From: Nostoc sp. FACHB-152
GTDB lineage: Bacteria; Cyanobacteriota; Cyanobacteriia; Cyanobacteriales; Nostocaceae
Direction: 5' to 3'
Assembly (NCBI RefSeq): GCF_014697475.1
Contig: NZ_JACJRV010000002.1
Span: 309,515-373,514 of the forward strand
DNA: 64,000 bases
Shown here: one piece after another, positions 3,337 through 38,230 of the stretch
Position numbering within the stretch: the first letter of the stretch is position 1
Layout: each line of letters opens with the position of its first letter
Position numbers and translations under genes: made by a program
The notes under the pieces: model-generated
The model's database searches: none
What the model was told of the DNA's origin: nothing
Seen by the model: the letters and a program-made list of their open reading frames with translations, nothing else

Positions 3337-3452
3337 TAAGCTAATCAGCATTTAAGCTGCACTATTGAAATTGTGAATCAATGACTTAAACCCTCTCCTC
3401 TGCCCCTCTGCTCCCCTGCGGTTTAAACTGCAAATTAGGTGCTTAACAGCTT
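3337..3452 (+). mobile_element. TAAGCT-type MITE-like element, intact copy (116 bp)
   Basis: The ends are imperfect inverted repeats: taagctaatcagcatttaag at the left, and at the right a complement reading taagctgttaagcacctaat (18 of 25 terminal bases agree). The interior has a C-rich tract (ctctgctcccctgcgg). An inverted copy lies at 17277-17385. A third copy at 20084-20416 is exactly 116 bp once a nested insertion is removed. There is no coding capacity, so it would have to be moved by a transposase encoded elsewhere. Confidence 0.75.
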
Positions 3453-3674
3453 ACAACCCCTCCCCAACCCTCATGCCAATGCAGCTTATGCCGGTAAACC
3501 CGTCCACCGCCAGTTGCGCCAGGGTGCCGTGAAAGACATCACATCACCATCTGGGGGCTTGTATCCCCAACCCTACACTCCGCCCCAACGGTGCTGCACA
3601 TCTTGTTCAGTTGTGATGAAGCGATTTTTAAGAGTTAATGAGTACTCTTAGCATTCAATTTTATCAATGGTAGT

Positions 3675-14027: not shown

Positions 14028-15374
14028 TTAAACTCCAGAAGGAAAAGTCTCTGGTGGTTCACCCATTTCTTTATACTTGATTCGGTCTAAAGGTTGAACG
14101 CCTTTAGTATCATCAATATGAATTAGGGCATCAAATTGGTCAGGAAGACAAACATCAAAATAATGGCTGACGCGCTCAGTTTTTGGTCGGTAAATTACAC
14201 CAATTGCTCTTTGTAGGCGGTTTTTTTTGAGAGCTTCAATGGCAGGATGCGCACCTCTTAAGATTAATAAAAACTGTGTTATTCCAGTCTGATGAAATAC
14301 TGCTTCGTAACTTTCTGGTAAAGCAGAGCGAACTTGCTTGAGTTCGGCGCTTCCTCCCCAATGAGAAGCAGCAATAACTGTACCAGTATATGTACTAAAC
14401 CCAATTAACACTGCATCATTACCATAGCGTTCACGCACTAACTGACCAACATTTAGTTCACCCATTCTTTTCATATCAGTTGCTCTTGCATCTCCTAGAT
14501 GAGAGTTGTGTTCCCAAACAACAATTTTGGTTTGTTGTCCTTGCTGATCAAAATGGGCTATTAGTTGGTCTAGAGTTTCTGCCATATGGCGATCGCGTAT
14601 ATTCCAAGATGATTCCCGTTCGTGGAACATTGTGCGATAATACATCTCAGCATTTTTCACTAGGCGCGCATTCTGTTCGGCGTAAAAATATTCATCCGCC
14701 GCCAAACAACCATCTTTGTGAAAGTACTCGTTTGTCCGGTTTTGTAGTTCCCGCAGCTGATTGATGACTTCTTCCTCACAGGGTTGGGCTAGTCCCAGAC
14801 CAGTAGCATACCCATAATTTTGAGTGTCTTCACCAAAATGCTCTAAGCATGAGTAACGCTGACGAGCGCGATTTGCTGCTTCTGGGTCAATGCGATCGAG
14901 GTATTCAATAACTGCGTCTATAGAGCTATACATACTGTACAAATCTAGCCCATAGAAGCCAACTTTCATTCTATCTCTCGGCAACTTATCATTATATTCA
15001 CGTAGCCAGTAGACAAAGTTTAAAACATCAATATTTCGCCACATCCAGGCAGGAAATTGTCGAAACCCAGCCAATGCTGCTTCTGGTGTTTGGTCATGAC
15101 TAACACCCTGCACATAACGATTCACACGATAAGCATCAGGCCAGTCTGCTTCTACTGCTACCGCCGTAAAGCCTTTCTCTTGAATTAGTCTTTTAGTAAT
15201 TTCGGCCCGTTGTTGATAAAATTCATGAGTTCCGTGGGAAGCTTCACCAATTAGAACGAAACGAGCATCACCAATTAAGTTCATCAATTGGTCATAGTCT
15301 TGGGCTGCACCTGTGAGCGGATATGCAAATTCACGCACCACATCGACGAGGTTGGTTATGGTTGCGTCTGGCAT
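14028..15374 (-). CDS. Erythromycin esterase family protein
   Basis: A 448-residue soluble protein of the EreA/EreB-like superfamily, hydrolases some of which open macrolide lactones. The N-terminal catalytic block FVLIGEASHGTHEFYQQRAEITKRLI holds Glu44 and His47, and VAVEADWPD holds Glu75, matching the residues known to be essential in Ere enzymes (Glu43, His46, Glu74). Further conserved phrases are VGFYGLDLYS, RDRHMAETL and WEHNSHLGDAR. Most environmental members are not proven resistance enzymes, so 'esterase family' is safer than antibiotic resistance. It probably shares a transcript with hdeD-like 13384-13959 downstream. Confidence 0.88.
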   Translation of the reverse strand: MPDATITNLVDVVREFAYPLTGAAQDYDQLMNLIGDARFVLIGEASHGTHEFYQQRAEITKRLIQEKGFTAVAVEADWPDAYRVNRYVQGVSHDQTPEAALAGFRQFPAWMWRNIDVLNFVYWLREYNDKLPRDRMKVGFYGLDLYSMYSSIDAVIEYLDRIDPEAANRARQRYSCLEHFGEDTQNYGYATGLGLAQPCEEEVINQLRELQNRTNEYFHKDGCLAADEYFYAEQNARLVKNAEMYYRTMFHERESSWNIRDRHMAETLDQLIAHFDQQGQQTKIVVWEHNSHLGDARATDMKRMGELNVGQLVRERYGNDAVLIGFSTYTGTVIAASHWGGSAELKQVRSALPESYEAVFHQTGITQFLLILRGAHPAIEALKKNRLQRAIGVIYRPKTERVSHYFDVCLPDQFDALIHIDDTKGVQPLDRIKYKEMGEPPETFPSGV

Positions 15375-15832
15375 AAGAATTATTTGTTAGTCAGAATTTT
15401 ACGAGTTCTTAGTCAGCATTACTGCGTAAGCTAATACTGATATTTATGACACATATTTAATGAAGTCACTTACTCAACTCAGCATAAGAATTTCTTAATT
15501 CTTTTCCATCTGGCTAACGGTGCATGGTGTTAAATAGTTTAATCTCCCTAAGGGAAGACATAGCCGAGAAAACCTAAGTAAAATCAGCCTGTGGCTGTCG
15601 CGTTCTTATGTTGAATATCCTCGTGCTAATACCATTTCATTCAATTAAAAACACATACAGCAGTTTTCATCCCACTGAGGTACATTCCTCTCGCCCCTAT
15701 CTACTTGTACTGTACTCAACCGAGAAACGCTGTAATTTTTCTAGCGGCAATTATAGTTTGCTAACCCTCTAAATAATTGTTGGTTGAGTGTAGCTCTGGA
15801 AGACTTATGCATTTACACTCAACCAACAATTC
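15375..15832. other. Gap downstream of the lectin gene and upstream of the esterase gene
   Basis: No gene is seen. The left part carries the promoter region of the minus-strand esterase gene. The right end carries the strong hairpin at 15775-15831. The central part (about 15530-15620) has the phrase ctccctaagggaagacatag but no recognisable RNA gene. Confidence 0.5.
15775..15831 (-). terminator. 18-bp perfect hairpin after the lectin gene
   Basis: aattgttggttgagtgta (15775-15792) pairs perfectly with 15814-15831 around a 21-base loop, immediately after the stop of the minus-strand lectin gene. In the direction of transcription the stem is followed by an A/T-rich but not T-pure tract. Likely a terminator, possibly bidirectional. 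Confidence 0.6.
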
Positions 15833-17276: not shown

Positions 17277-17385
17277 TAAGCTGTTAAGCACCTAATTTGC
17301 AGTTTAGACCGCAGGGGGGCAGAGGAGATGGTTTAAGTTATTTATTCACAATTTCAATAGTGCAGCTTAAATGCTGATTAGCTTA
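17277..17385 (-). mobile_element. TAAGCT-type MITE-like element, inverted copy
   Basis: Running taagctgttaagcacctaat to ttaaatgctgattagctta, this 109-bp stretch is the reverse complement of the element at 3337-3452 over its whole length, including the interior purine/pyrimidine tract and the motif cacaatttcaatagtgcagc. It lies in the divergent gap between a minus-strand secreted-protein gene and the plus-strand TPR gene. Confidence 0.75.
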
Positions 17386-17393
17386 TTCATGCC

Positions 17394-17438
17394 AAAACAG
17401 GTAATGCCATCAGCTACACCAATGGCATTACCTGTTTT
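17394..17438. terminator. 17-bp perfect hairpin with T-runs on both strands, not next to a gene end
   Basis: aaaacaggtaatgccat (17394-17410) pairs perfectly with atggcattacctgtttt (17422-17438) around an 11-base loop. Both flanks give short T-runs, so it could act in either direction. No gene ends here: the nearest plus-strand start is 159 bases downstream. It may be a leader attenuator of the TPR gene or the end of an unannotated short RNA. Confidence 0.5.
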
Positions 17439-17596
17439 GTCTTGAGCATGGTCTTGCAATTTCAACCCCAGTTATGACATACTCAGGTAAATACGGTAAA
17501 TTAGTCGATTTAGTGGTGTTTAATTGTTGACTCAGAAGTTTGGCGGGTTGATAAGCGTTTAACCCCCATTGCTCATACTTAAGCCAGGAATAAACA

Positions 17597-18900: not shown

Positions 18901-19693
18901 CATATCCAGCCTTGATTGCAGTATTGTAGATTGTAGCGATCGCCTCATATTCTGATAAATCTACAGCCGCAAAACGTCTCACACCAACTTGTTTCATTGC
19001 CGTTTGTAGTTCTGCATCTGGATGAAGCAGAGCCGCTTGAATCTGCTGAGTTAGCAATTTATCTAGATGCTGATTTGCTACCAAAGGAGGCATTGGACAT
19101 GGCCCGATTACTTCCACCACGCGCAGATAATGAGATAAATCAGGACTTTCCCGTAGTTCCTGCTCTAACACTACACTATCAATACCTGCACAATCTGCCA
19201 GCCCTTCTACTACCCAACGAATTGAACGCTGGTGAAAGCCTGATTGAATTGTCTGGGCAAAAAAGTTTTTCGGGTGTCCGCCTTGTAATAATCGATGTCG
19301 GATCAAATTGTAGCCACTGTTAGATCCAGGGTCGTTATAACAAAAGGTTTTACCTGCTAAATCTGCAAAACTGAACAGATGACTCTCAGCATGGACAATC
19401 ACATCCGTAAAGTAAATCGGACGGTTTTGATAACGTGGTGCTTCCATGACGGGAGCAACTACAGGTTGTAATGTCACGACTGGACTAGATCTAACTAGAG
19501 GTAATCCACAAATAAACGCTAAGTCTAGTTGATCTGTTAATAGTATGGGATCTGCTAGTGGATCATATTTGCTTTGGTGAAACTGAGTTTCAATTCCCAA
19601 CACACGACCTAAATAAGTCAGTATTGCTTCGTAAAACCAGAACCAATTGGGAGCTAAGTAAGATATAACTCGCAGCTTTGTTGGTTGGCTCAC
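18887..19693 (-). CDS. PhnD-like (phosphate/phosphonate-type) solute-binding-fold protein without signal peptide
   Basis: A 268-residue protein with the periplasmic-binding-protein fold of the PhnD family. It opens TKLRVISYLAPNWFWFYEAIL and continues DLAFICGLPLV, then VIVHAESHLFSFADLAGKTFCYNDPGSNSGYNLIRHRLL with the ligand-loop Ser/Asn residues, and SVVLEQELRE. It has no signal peptide or lipobox, unlike transport receptors, and no permease or ATPase genes adjoin it. Its start overlaps the stop of a one-helix membrane protein gene (19690-19956) by ATGA, so the pair is translated together. I infer a cytoplasmic sensor or carrier acting with the membrane partner; the ligand is unknown. Confidence 0.75.
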   Translation of the reverse strand: MSQPTKLRVISYLAPNWFWFYEAILTYLGRVLGIETQFHQSKYDPLADPILLTDQLDLAFICGLPLVRSSPVVTLQPVVAPVMEAPRYQNRPIYFTDVIVHAESHLFSFADLAGKTFCYNDPGSNSGYNLIRHRLLQGGHPKNFFAQTIQSGFHQRSIRWVVEGLADCAGIDSVVLEQELRESPDLSHYLRVVEVIGPCPMPPLVANQHLDKLLTQQIQAALLHPDAELQTAMKQVGVRRFAAVDLSEYEAIATIYNTAIKAGYEAIS

Positions 19694-19956
19694 TTGCTAC
19701 TCTCTAAATCTAATTCATCTTGCTGTGTTGGAACTATCAACAGCTTGCGGGAAGACCAATGAATACTCACGAAAATCAAACTCATCAACGTTAAAAGCAT
19801 GATGCTAAAAACTATGCCGTAGCCTTTAGTGTGCCACCATAGACGCTGGAGAGATATTTTAACCAGTCGCACAGGTCGCCACAGGTCTTGATTAACGCTT
19901 TGAGAATTATCCATACTGATAGTTAAGGATACTGTGTTCTGTGGCGCGATTGTCAT
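19690..19956 (-). CDS. Small single-helix membrane protein coupled to the PhnD-like gene
   Basis: An 88-residue protein: a polar N-terminal arm, a basic stretch (RPVRLVKISLQRLWWHTKGYG), one membrane helix (about 49-68, IVFSIMLLTLMSLIFVSIHW) and a short acidic tail (DELDLESSK). It has no family I recognise. Its stop overlaps the start of the PhnD-like gene (ATGA at 19690-19693), which supports it as a real gene and suggests the two products act together at the membrane. The charge pattern favours a cytoplasmic N-terminus. Confidence 0.6.
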   Translation of the reverse strand: MTIAPQNTVSLTISMDNSQSVNQDLWRPVRLVKISLQRLWWHTKGYGIVFSIMLLTLMSLIFVSIHWSSRKLLIVPTQQDELDLESSK

Positions 19957-20120
19957 TTTTACTACTCCTGAAAGTTATGAAAGTTAAATACGGTAATTCG
20001 ACTGGTTTAGTGGTGTATTTTAAATATGGCATAGCTTGATGCAACAGGCAATCCCTAATCTTTTTGATGCGATCTCTGGCTAGTAAGCTATTAGGCATTT
20101 AACTTGCACATTATTAATTT

Positions 20121-20332
20121 AACGTGAGTTCGACGGAGCTAAAAAACCCCTCTCCAAACCTCTCCCCCTGTGGGGGAGAGGCTTTGAAACCCTTATCTTT
20201 AGTTGAAATATCACAATGTTTTAGCCCCTCTCCGCGTCGGAGCGAAAAGTTGAGCCAGTGCGTTGGACGGGTTTCCCGGCGCAAAACTTTTCAAGACAGA
20301 GGGGTTGGGGAGAGGTTCATCGAACTCACGTT
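20121..20332 (+). mobile_element. AACGTGAG-type MITE inserted in the TAAGCT element
   Basis: Inverted ends are aacgtgagttcga and tcgaactcacgtt, flanked by aattt on both sides (20116-20120 and 20333-20337). The interior has facing C-rich and G-rich blocks (cccctctccaaacctctccc and ggggttggggagagg). It is 57 bp longer than its sister at 36784-36938 because of a further insertion near 20242-20292. There is no transposase or credible open frame inside. Confidence 0.85.
20242..20292. repeat. Small palindromic repeat nested inside the MITE
   Basis: gaaaagtt (20244-20251) and aacttttc (20285-20292) bracket a core gagccagtgcgttggacggg...tttcccggcg. The sister element at 36784-36938 has no such block here. 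Similar cores occur at about 7010-7050 (in reverse, cgggaaacgcgcccaacgcg) and 58082-58105 (gcgtgggcgggtttcccgac), so this is a dispersed repeat in its own right. Confidence 0.65.
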
Positions 20333-20523
20333 AATTTAAGGAAAAACGTCAATTTCTCTCCCCTGCTCCTCTGCGCCCCTGCGGTCTACACTGCAAATTA
20401 GGTGCTGAATAGCTTATTAAGTGCATCACCTCAAAACCTCTCCCCTGCTCCCTTCCCCCGTGCTTTTTCATGTGTCACGCTGGTAATGAAGATTTCAATG
20501 CCTTGTTTCAAGTCCCAGTGAGA

Positions 20524-21156
20524 ATGTCTAATCAAGTTTGGTTATCACAGTTGCGAAAAAACAGAGCGATCGCTGTCATCCGTGCGTCAAAAATGGAAAT
20601 AGGCGAACAGATGGCAATGGCGGTAGCATCTGGAGGAATGCAGCTAATAGAAATTACCTGGAATAGCGATCGCGCCGCAGAATTAATCGCTAAACTACGC
20701 TTAAAATTGCCAGATTGCATAATTGGTACAGGTACGCTGTTCAACGTGCAGCAGTTAAAAGATGCGATCGCCACAGGAGCGCAATTCTTATTTTCACCCT
20801 ATGTTGATGGTGCAATGATTGCCGCAGCAGTAGCAAAAGATGTGCCGATAATTCCTGGGGCGTTGACTCCTACAGAGATTGTTAGTGCTTGGCATCAAGG
20901 AGCTAGTTGTGTGAAAGTCTTTCCTGTGCAAGCAGTGGGGGGAGCCAGTTATATCAAGAGTTTACAAGGGCCACTGGGGCATATTCCTGTCATTCCTACA
21001 GGTGGGGTAAGATTAGATAATGCCCAAGACTTTATCCAAGCGGGGGCTGTGGCTGTTGGTTTAAGCAGTGAATTGTTTCCCCAGAAACTGGTAGCGGCAG
21101 AAAATTGGCAAGCGATCGCCCAAAATACAAGTCAGCTAATGCAGCAATTAGCGTAG
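20524..21156 (+). CDS. eda: KDPG/KHG aldolase
   Basis: Cleaves 2-keto-3-deoxy-6-phosphogluconate to pyruvate and glyceraldehyde-3-phosphate (Entner-Doudoroff pathway), and in many members also 4-hydroxy-2-oxoglutarate. It is a 210-residue TIM-barrel, the usual length. Read from ATG 20524: catalytic Glu43 in LIEITWNSD, the PGALTPTE loop at 111-118, Schiff-base Lys131 in SCVKVFPVQA and the phosphate-binding GG at 160-161 (IPTGGVRLDN). The frame is also open from ATG 20470, but that adds 18 residues not expected for the family. It is preceded by the nested repeat region and followed by an L,D-transpeptidase gene with an 80-bp gap. Confidence 0.93.
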   Translation: MSNQVWLSQLRKNRAIAVIRASKMEIGEQMAMAVASGGMQLIEITWNSDRAAELIAKLRLKLPDCIIGTGTLFNVQQLKDAIATGAQFLFSPYVDGAMIAAAVAKDVPIIPGALTPTEIVSAWHQGASCVKVFPVQAVGGASYIKSLQGPLGHIPVIPTGGVRLDNAQDFIQAGAVAVGLSSELFPQKLVAAENWQAIAQNTSQLMQQLA

Positions 21157-33946: not shown

Positions 33947-34483
33947 GCAATAGATTTTGTGGTGTTGCTGAATTAACGTGAGTTCGACAGATCATCACCC
34001 ACTTCCATTCCTCTCCCCGAAGCGGGGCTACGGTGTACACACAAGCGGAAAACTTCATCTACCAAAGATTTGCAGTGCATTACGCTGGCGTGACCAAGCT
34101 AAATTGTTGCAATCATGTGATCGCAAAAGTAGTATTTGCGAACTCAAAAGCTATTTTTGCGAACTCAAAAGCTATTTTTGCGAACTCAAAAGCTATTTTT
34201 GCGAACTCAAAAGCTGTTTTTGCGAATTCAAAAGCTGTTTTTGCGAATTCAAAAGCTGTTTTTGCGAACTCAAAAGCTGTTTTTGCGAATTCAAAAGCTG
34301 TTTTTGCGAACTCAAAAGCTATTTTTGCGAATTCAAAAGCTATTTTTGCGAACTCAAAAGCTACTTTTGCGAACTCAAAAGCTGTTTTGATGTGTTCATA
34401 ACGCACCCTACGAGACTACTGGAAGAGTTGAAACCTATGCTGGTCATACTTGCGTGTACACCGTAGCCGAAGCGGGGAGAGGC
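33947..34483. other. Gap holding a truncated MITE, inverted repeats and a 21-bp tandem repeat
   Basis: It starts with an AACGTGAG-family left end at 33975 (aacgtgagttcgac). An inverted pair follows, ggctacggtgtacacacaag (34026-34045) and cttgcgtgtacaccgtagcc (34449-34468), matching at 19 of 20 positions. The 12-unit tandem repeat lies between them. Open frames through the repeat exist in most reading frames because the unit is a multiple of three without stops; none is credible as a gene. Confidence 0.75.
34133..34386. repeat. 21-bp tandem repeat, 12 units (VNTR)
   Basis: The unit is tttttgcgaactcaaaagct plus a/g. The gcgaa anchors fall every 21 bp from 34138 to 34369. Variants are systematic: gaactc or gaattc in the middle, and a or g at the unit end. 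Most of the g-type and gaattc units are in the centre, which suggests growth by block duplication. The array is flanked by the inverted repeats at 34026-34045 and 34449-34468. Confidence 0.95.
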
Positions 34484-36783: not shown

Positions 36784-36938
36784 AACGTGAGTTCGACCGA
36801 TGATAAAGAACCCCTCTCCAAACCTCTCCCCGAAGCAGGGAGAGGCTTAGAAAGCTTAATTTTTTGTTCCTAACCAAGATATTAAAGCCCCTCTCCGAGA
36901 CGGAGAGGGGTTGGGGAGAGGTTCATCGAACTCACGTT
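36784..36938 (+). mobile_element. AACGTGAG-type MITE, intact copy with 5-bp target duplication
   Basis: A 155-bp element with inverted ends aacgtgagttcga / tcgaactcacgtt and facing blocks cccctctccaaacctctccc and ggggttggggagagg. The five bases aagat occur directly on both sides (36779-36783 and 36939-36943). The left duplication overlaps the stop codon of the GMC gene, so the element landed at the very end of that gene without changing its product. Non-coding. Confidence 0.88.
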
Positions 36939-36994: not shown

Positions 36995-38230
36995 CTATGA
37001 TACAAAGCGGCTGGTAATCCGTTTCATTGCTTCTTCTACATTTTCTCTGCTGTTGAATGCAGAAATGCGGAAGTAGCCTTCACCCGCAGCACCAAAGCCA
37101 GAACCAGGTGTCCCGACAACATTGCAAGTATGCAGTAATTTATCGAAGAAATCCCAGCTAGAAAGTTCGTTGGGAGTTTTTAGCCAAACGTAAGGTGCGT
37201 TCACTCCACCATAAACTGCTATCCCGGCGGCTGTAAGTTGTTCTCGAATGATTTTAGCGTTTTCTAAATAGAAACTTACTAAGGCTTTGATTTGTGCCTG
37301 TCCCTCTGCGGAATATACTGCTTCTGCGCCGCGCTGCACGATGTAAGACACACCGTTGAACTTGGTAGACTGGCGGCGGTTCCACAACTTCCACAATTCC
37401 ACATCGGAACCATCAGCCGCTTTGGCTTTTAGGGTTTGGGGTACGACAGTTAAAGCGCAACGAGTTCCAGTAAAACCAGCATTTTTAGAGAAGGAACGGA
37501 ACTCAATTGCACAATCTCTTGCACCTTCAATTTCATAAATAGAATGAGGTAGCGACGGGTCTGTAATATATGCTTCGTAAGCAGCATCAAAGAAAATAAT
37601 CGAGTTATTAGCTTTGGCGTAGTCTACCCATGCTTTCAGGTGTTCTTTGGTCGCTGTTGCACCTGTGGGATTATTAGGGAAGCAAAGGTAAATTAAATCA
37701 ACTTTTTGGCTGGGAATTTCGGCGGTAAAGTTATTTTCTGCGGTAATTGGCAGATAAACTAAACCATCAAATTCACCTTTATCATTGGCTGGGCCTGTGT
37801 GTCCTGCCATAACGTTAGTGTCTACATATACCGGATACACAGGGTCGGTAACAGCGATAACGTTGTTGTTACCAAAAATGTCGAGAATGTTGCCTGTATC
37901 GCATTTAGAACCGTCGGAAATAAAGATTTCGGAAGCATCGACTTCTGCACCTCGTGCTTGGAAATCTTGGGCTGCAATTTTTTCCCTTAACCAAGCATAA
38001 CCTTGTTCTGGGCCATAGCCTTTGAAAGTTGCGCGATCGCCCATCTCTTCCACAGCTTTAATCATCGCTGTGCGGCAAGCTTCTGGTAATGGTTCGGTAA
38101 CATCGCCAATTCCCAACCGAATGATTTTAGCATCGGGGTTGGCTTCGGCAAAGGCATTGACTCGCCGCGCAATTTCAGGAAAAAGATAACCAGCTTTTAG
38201 CTTCAGGTAGTTGTCGTTAATCGTCGCCAT
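36995..38230 (-). CDS. dapL: LL-diaminopimelate aminotransferase
   Basis: Converts tetrahydrodipicolinate to LL-diaminopimelate in one step, the lysine/peptidoglycan route used by cyanobacteria and plants. It is a PLP enzyme of 411 residues, the standard DapL length, from ATG 38230 ([20 protein letters not shown]); a start 7 codons upstream is possible but not family-like. Conserved features are [13 protein letters not shown] near the N-terminus, [27 protein letters not shown] with the PLP/carboxylate-binding Asn, and [14 protein letters not shown] with the PLP-binding Lys. The C-terminal [20 protein letters not shown] holds the carboxylate-binding Arg. Cytoplasmic. It is convergent with the GMC gene. 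Confidence 0.96.

Follow-up and report, generated by a model that had tools for sequence, protein, structure and literature searches.

Repeats nested within one another are often read as a clock in which the innermost element is the youngest. Does this reading hold in a spacer of Nostoc sp. FACHB-152 where three small inverted-repeat elements lie one inside the other? The original prediction, made from a 64,000-nucleotide stretch of this 8.6-Mb draft assembly (the window, to which all positions given without a contig refer), held that the order of three insertions could be read from the single locus. Flanking the nest are a divergent 88-aa ORF (19690-19956), for which a Pfam search returned 0 matches, and a KDPG/KHG aldolase gene (20470-21156); an Rfam search of 19900-20600 gave no structured-RNA match up to E 1. 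The spacer beside the locus reads alike in the genus relative G010 (L139) and Nostoc sp. CHAB 5844 (L129). The locus and its relatives within the window comprise the following features.

20084-20120, plus strand: outer 116-bp TAAGCT inverted-repeat element, left part, starting with TA
20116-20120, no strand: target-site duplication AATTT, left copy
20121-20332, plus strand: AACGTGAG MITE, 212 bp, with 13-bp terminal repeats AACGTGAGTTCGA; its ends match those of an IS982-family IS
20225-20241, plus strand: CCCCTCTCCGCGTCGGA, 5' side of the hairpin that belongs to the MITE itself and received the inner insertion; the 3' side, GAGGGG, is at 20299-20304
20242-20298, plus strand: hairpin element with ends GCGAAAAGTT and AACTTTTCAAGACA, 57 bp; most other copies are 48-49 or 92-97 bp
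20252-20268, plus strand: remnant, the first 17 nt of a second inner element, GAGCCAGTGCGTTGGAC, the remainder of which was lost in a 37-bp deletion
20269-20273, no strand: GGGTT deletion joint, where 37 bp of the 94-bp sister inserts are missing
20333-20337, no strand: target-site duplication AATTT, right copy
20333-20416, plus strand: outer TAAGCT element, right part, beginning with the second AATTT (20333-20337) and ending AGCTTA
3337-3453, plus strand: intact TAAGCT element; 117 bp, counting the TA at each end
17277-17385, minus strand: TAAGCT element, 109 bp
36784-36938, plus strand: sister AACGTGAG MITE without the insert, 155 bp, flanked by AAGAT

The outer element was confirmed with TAAGCT and AGCTTA at its predicted ends, 20084 and 20416, and its 116 bp do form a dispersed family, represented by 45 matching pieces across the own genome (171 candidates, of which 40 were scored; such piece counts, here and for the MITE, are not copy numbers, as several pieces may form one copy and each search scored 40 candidates only). 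Twenty two-ended copies were recognised among the loci examined, and TA stands at the start of 19 of them (TC in L021) and at the end of all 20, the search pattern having itself included the terminal TA letters and allowed 5 mismatches; the TA that starts the element at 20084 may be part of a TA target duplication, as expected of a TA-targeting MITE of the IS630/Tc1 type. Joining the two halves and removing one AATTT gives 116 bp, as had been calculated. The claim that this is exactly the length of the copy at 3337 does not hold, that copy being 117 bp when counted like for like (3337-3453), and since two-ended copies without an extra insert vary from 100 to 126 bp, the length match carries little weight and we rejected it as evidence. 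The joined halves align with other copies across the interrupted region, where one AATTT-like stretch is present; no MITE-free sister of the window's own subtype was found among the copies examined, and the single AATTT is therefore inferred from TAAGCT relatives. An empty site was also sought in nine relative loci (L129, L139-L146), which yielded 0 two-ended TAAGCT elements; only some of these keep the aldolase gene adjacent, and their spacer is too diverged to place the exact base. An inverted repeat, CAAAACAGGTAATGCCAT...ATGGCATTACCTGTTTTG, lies at 17393-17440, immediately beside the TAAGCT element at 17277-17385.

The MITE at 20121-20332 splits the outer element with AATTT on both sides, in agreement with the predicted coordinates and letters, and is indeed 57 bp longer than its sister (212 versus 155 bp). 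For its family the own-genome search gave 55 matching pieces, from 40 scored out of 120 candidates. Exact direct repeats of 5-7 bp flank 20 of the 25 copies with readable flanks and are absent at the other five; two more copies were left out of this count because their flanks are cut by contig ends. With 45 outer-element and 55 MITE pieces in the genome, the parts of the nest are not chance resemblances, and the dispersal of both families, the 5-7 bp direct repeats and the one AATTT-like stretch in relatives together show that the MITE inserted into the outer element.

A candidate source of the activity that moves the MITE is present in the same genome. A scan for the MITE ends (one mismatch allowed, positions taken from the first 100 places listed) gave 59 forward and 59 reverse ends, versus 17 and 13 for the reversed pattern. 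Among the matches listed, one end pair lies 1,089 bp apart (C1:504277-505365); both of its ends are AACGTGAGTTCGA, identical over 13 bp to the MITE ends, and the 303-aa protein encoded inside matches the IS982 model NF033520 (E=7.5e-73, 245 bits, cut-off 130). The left end of this IS (..CGATGAAC) matches the right end of the MITE and its right end (..CGACGGTTATAAAAA) resembles the left end of the MITE, the polarity of the sub-terminal letters agreeing between the two IS ends and the two MITE ends. This was the one IS copy found, and a direct repeat looked for at its ends was absent. Most likely, an IS982-family transposase recognising the same ends moves the MITE. Between the AACGTGAG ends of L353 (G000:C158:157621-157892) lie about 272 bp whose sub-terminal letters are IS982-like rather than MITE-like; L353 is possibly a second deletion derivative.

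By rough arithmetic, about 0.04 such nests would be expected from random hits, given about 59 MITEs (half of the ends found in the scan), a ceiling of about 45 copies of the 116-bp outer element (the matching pieces) and 8.6 Mb. The nest is therefore rare but, on this estimate, needs no special cause, and the expectation would rise if both families prefer AT-rich spacers. Alone, it is ordinary for a repeat-rich genome; the point of interest is the recurrent hairpin insertion.

Several contigs of the own genome (G000: C1, C16, C25, C51, C55, C109, C122, C130, C160 and C177) break inside the composite MITE, so the draft assembly probably understates its copy number. Contigs starting inside the MITE were also considered as signs of a long parent element whose end would coincide with the right end of the MITE; this candidate was rejected, as they look like composite MITEs split by the assembly. 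Longer AACGTGAG MITEs, of 198-244 bp, occur in Fortiea sp. LEGE XX443 (L130) and in G002 (L269-L271, L274); the other (left) hairpin arm of L130 contains a sequence related to the 45-bp unit described below, and the excess length of the G002 copies is similar. Just after a AACGTGAGTTCGA end at 33975, the window holds a 21-base tandem repeat (34113-34406) with FEFAKTA-type repeats in several frames.

The innermost piece had been described as a palindrome at 20244-20292. The palindrome is real, and the full inserted unit extends from 20242 to 20298 (57 bp). Such a palindrome is present in 9 of the 27 aligned own-genome MITE copies and absent from 18, always at CGGA^GAGGGG. Seven of the nine inserts in this alignment measure 94 bp, that of L005 is 49 bp long and that of the window copy 57 bp; a 92-bp insert occurs in further MITE copies. 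Taking 37 bp out of the 94-bp form, between two GGGTT repeats, yields the 57-bp form, and this loss is confined to the window copy among the copies examined. In L005, L040 and L041 the insert is a 49-bp hairpin, GCGAAAAGTTTGCGCGTCCGGGTTTCCCGGCGCAAAACTTTTCAAGACA, and the 94-bp insert consists of this hairpin with about 45 bp lodged inside it (GAGCCAGTGCG...CAACTGGCG). The third element of the nest is accordingly not the palindrome first seen: the intact unit is 94 bp long, comprises two nested elements and has lost 37 bp here. Close relatives of the 45-bp unit stand alone in heptamer-like repeats (C114, C117, C106), and a related unit occurs in 6 of 21 aligned outer-family copies. At one orthologous spacer, reading by eye shows relatives of this unit in G003 and G010 and none in G002 and G008.

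When did this insert reach the locus? In the MITE tree the window copy groups with L002, L003 and L004 (support 100/94), and all four carry the insert at the same base. Since these sisters share the palindrome, the insert is older than the jump of the window MITE, with which the palindrome would have arrived as a passenger. The geometry of the nest does favour the order originally proposed, an outer element entered by a MITE into which a palindrome was then inserted at this very locus; yet this order is very improbable given that L002-L004 hold the 94-bp insert at other loci and that the 57-bp form is a shortened 94-bp form, and the palindrome as latest event at the locus was rejected. The locus itself orders two events only, the outer element before the MITE, and to this extent the three-event order stands. 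The 37-bp loss, seen in the window copy alone among those examined, may precede or follow the MITE's jump. The rule that the innermost element is the youngest thus fails here because the inner element was a passenger.

Whether the insert came once or repeatedly was addressed with a tree of 53 MITE bodies from which the inserts were left out. Thirteen of 66 rows were excluded because they carried another insert, were ambiguous or had an odd length (L208, L280 twice, L130, L269, L270, L271, L274, L212, L255, L279, L204 and a second reading of L217). Fitting the insert state to this tree takes 14 changes (bootstrap range 12-14), of which the starred branches force no fewer than 6; as 25 of the 44 inner branches are weak, the 14 gains or losses are an estimate and 6 is the secure minimum. 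Shuffled labels gave a mean of 15.1 changes, 164 of 500 shuffles being as low as 14, so the presence of the insert hardly follows MITE kinship. L045, with the insert, and L077, without it, have identical MITE bodies. Among eight carriers of the 94-bp form the inserts are 95.7-100% identical, versus 78-88% for the cores of different lineages; in L148, which belongs to a different species, the insert matches that of L002 at 100% identity and the core at 81%. In 17 of 18 insert-free copies the insertion base is unchanged, and in the remaining one, L081, a changed base at this point (GGAGCGGGG) might be either a scar or a simple substitution. Precise loss is not separable from gain in every case.

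A single orthologous MITE provides a closer view. Its spacer is present in 11 of 11 genus genomes and holds the MITE in four of them, the MITE being absent in seven. The flanks are 88-97% identical among G001, G004 and G005, and those of G007 are 83% and 95% identical to G004. In G004 the MITE is empty, with an intact hairpin CGTCGGAGAGGGG; at the same base G005 carries a 48-bp insert and G001 a 49-bp insert with a different interior. In G007 (L208 / L284, C44 about 14690-15454) an unrelated palindromic element of a little more than 200 bp lies between copies of CTCCGCGTCGG, and since this 11-bp duplication repeats the intact hairpin, the hairpin of G007 was formerly empty. The MITE hairpin looks like an insertion hotspot. 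As the MITE-body tree, from which G007 is absent, groups G005 with the empty G004 and places G001 outside, two independent insertions are the explanation with the fewest steps. Gene conversion with tracts of about 20 bp to either side could also account for it. No second G005 copy of its variant was seen among matches of the end-fixed pattern, which the left end of this variant, GCGAAAAGTC, falls outside. In the own genome the orthologous spacer (L288, G000:C110, about 37277-37453) is without the MITE and keeps GACTTGTAGTTT, which matches the MITE left flank of G004 and G005 and may mark an empty site.

The hairpin is also found away from this MITE. A pattern with fixed ends, no mismatch and 0-30 free bases (22-52 nt allowed, absence therefore referring to these exact ends) matched 33 of 100 genomes, the own included; all 33 are among the 60 sampled from the same family, and the 40 others gave 0. 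With the pattern reversed as a control, none of the 100 genomes was matched. All but two of the matches listed are 47-51 nt long (the two being 38 and 39 nt). In 36 distinct matches, chosen from those listed and interrelated, hence not independent, interiors of equal length differ by 44% on average; 24 of the 36 fold with z below -2 (median -2.8, 200 single-base shuffles) and three with z near or above 0 (0.7, 0.3, -0.2). The family is thus one of fixed ends and a free, mostly foldable interior. L217 (G005:C1:363866-363992) has its interior in the opposite orientation to the common form, as though the segment between the arms had been flipped.

Same-ended elements occupy unrelated sites, for example ACGCA^GA/AAGG and TTTT^GGATTTTGG. 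Counting identical 12 + 12 neighbouring bases as one site, and with L175 assigned to the hairpins by eye, we typed the left neighbours at 44 of 53 sites: 15 in the MITE hairpin, 16 at GCA^ (mostly ACGCA^GA or ACGCA^AAGG arrays) and 13 at TTTT^ (mostly TTTTGGA arrays), the other 9 being different. Duplication at hairpin-element sites is 0-1 bp. A MITE whose ends differ carries this insert as well, in the same hairpin (L044, L165, L175). Of 31 own-genome right-end matches listed (L118 merged with L058; two further copies, on C113 and C155, lie outside the set), 25 sit in a MITE-type hairpin at the same base, including L120, whose left part is beyond the contig end; one is a whole element elsewhere (L121), and five have no left end and were taken as chance. 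The share of elements in MITEs is biased, as loci were chosen by similarity to the MITE and its insert.

How, then, does the hairpin come to be present in some MITEs and absent from their close relatives? The insert might be ancestral to the MITE and have been precisely lost many times. Palindromes favour deletion, the scattered distribution fits losses as well as gains, and the base change in L081 could be a scar; but the inserts are far less diverged than the MITE bodies that carry them, G001 and G005 differ in variant at one orthologous base, the duplication in G007 is of an intact hairpin, and all but one of the insert-free copies keep the insertion base, which leaves this explanation improbable. 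Spread of the insert among MITEs by gene conversion or template switching, rather than by movement of its own, deserves more credit and is still doubtful. Short homology is available, since all aligned MITE lineages have nearly identical hairpin arms, G000 has many insert-bearing copies as donors, and tracts covering about 20 bp or less of shared hairpin per side could carry the insert. Against this, at the orthologous MITE the locus-specific markers about 20 bp from the insertion are unchanged and the inserts of the two orthologues represent different variants, and same-ended elements stand in repeats unlike the MITE (TTTTGGA and ACGCAGA arrays).

A folded single-stranded intermediate is suggested by the lack of coding room and of a clear duplication, by the mostly foldable body and by fixed ends with the unpaired 3' tail AAGACA; the hairpin would then move as a folded single strand, RNA or ssDNA, and not by gene conversion. 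An RNA intermediate was reportedly suggested for small dispersed repeats (SDRs) when they were described, and movement as ssDNA, as in IS200/IS605, is an alternative single-strand route. We propose, tentatively and at somewhat less than even odds, that the hairpins of about 50 nt are self-spreading elements, restricted among the genomes sampled to one cyanobacterial family, with constant letters at their ends (GCGAAAAGTT / CTTTTCAAGACA) and an interior for which folding is the main requirement; they would move as a folded single strand, make no target duplication, re-colonise the same base of the MITE hairpin and ride the MITE.

For the locus as a whole we favour, with a probability of roughly 85%, a stack in which hairpins entered the MITE, the MITE multiplied and one copy jumped into the TAAGCT element, the hairpin being itself mobile and inserting repeatedly. 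A hairpin of about 49 bp (GCGAAAAGTT, AACTTTTCAAGACA) holding one of about 45 bp would have settled at CGGA^GAGGGG in the arm of a AACGTGAG MITE, and the composite lineage would have multiplied, most likely by the same-ended IS982-family transposase. One copy would then have jumped into the TAAGCT element between the 88-aa ORF and the aldolase gene, duplicating AATTT, and before or after this jump the window insert would have lost 37 bp between its two GGGTT repeats. Mobility of the hairpin in its own right would account for its repeated insertion at a fixed base of the MITE hairpin and in heptamer-type repeats. All evidence for movement is comparative, the transposition events being deduced from sequence.

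To our knowledge, how bacterial elements of about 50 nt spread has been an open question since SDRs were described. Such elements are too small to encode anything, and a single orthologous base that is empty in one genome and holds differing variants in others amounts to a natural experiment on their spread, by which the base-exact movement of micro-elements becomes testable.

Among known systems, IS1397 inserts into REP palindromes, and here too a palindrome within a repeat is the target; unlike IS1397, the inserted piece is a non-coding hairpin of about 49 bp and no IS. The AACGTGAG MITE resembles IS-driven type I MITEs in its 13-bp IS-identical ends, shared sub-terminal letters, 5-7 bp direct repeats and lack of a long coding frame, and differs in carrying a recurrent, base-exact hairpin insert. 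The MITEs of Anabaena sp. 90, called type II and without a matching IS in the accessible part of their description (PMC3542288), differ from the AACGTGAG MITE with its matching IS982-family IS. REPINs and REP sequences are, in the available portions of two accounts (PMC3116915, PMC3733652), short hairpins that spread as non-autonomous units, as the hairpin family would. None of the hairpin-element ends showed a GTAG or CGTC tag.

The hairpin element was not found in the literature searched, a comparison that the original SDR description of 2008 by Elhai lies outside. With SDRs the family was compared at the level of their general description. The SDRs of Nostoc punctiforme that Elhai et al. 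presented in 2008 are said to be very small hairpins, 21-27 nt long and of eight families, that reside in heptamer repeats and mini-transposons and nest in one another; three of the families reportedly combine a conserved hairpin with varying sequence. On this description they share with our elements the hairpin-forming body, the residence in heptamer repeats and mini-transposons, the nesting, and the conserved hairpin with a varying interior. Our family differs in being mostly 47-51 nt long against the reported 21-27, and longer with a second element inside, and in its fixed ends, free interior and other targets. Base-exact insertion has a precedent in SDR5, which, in the accessible part of the report, is inserted precisely between the third and fourth base of HIP1 (PMC4390886).
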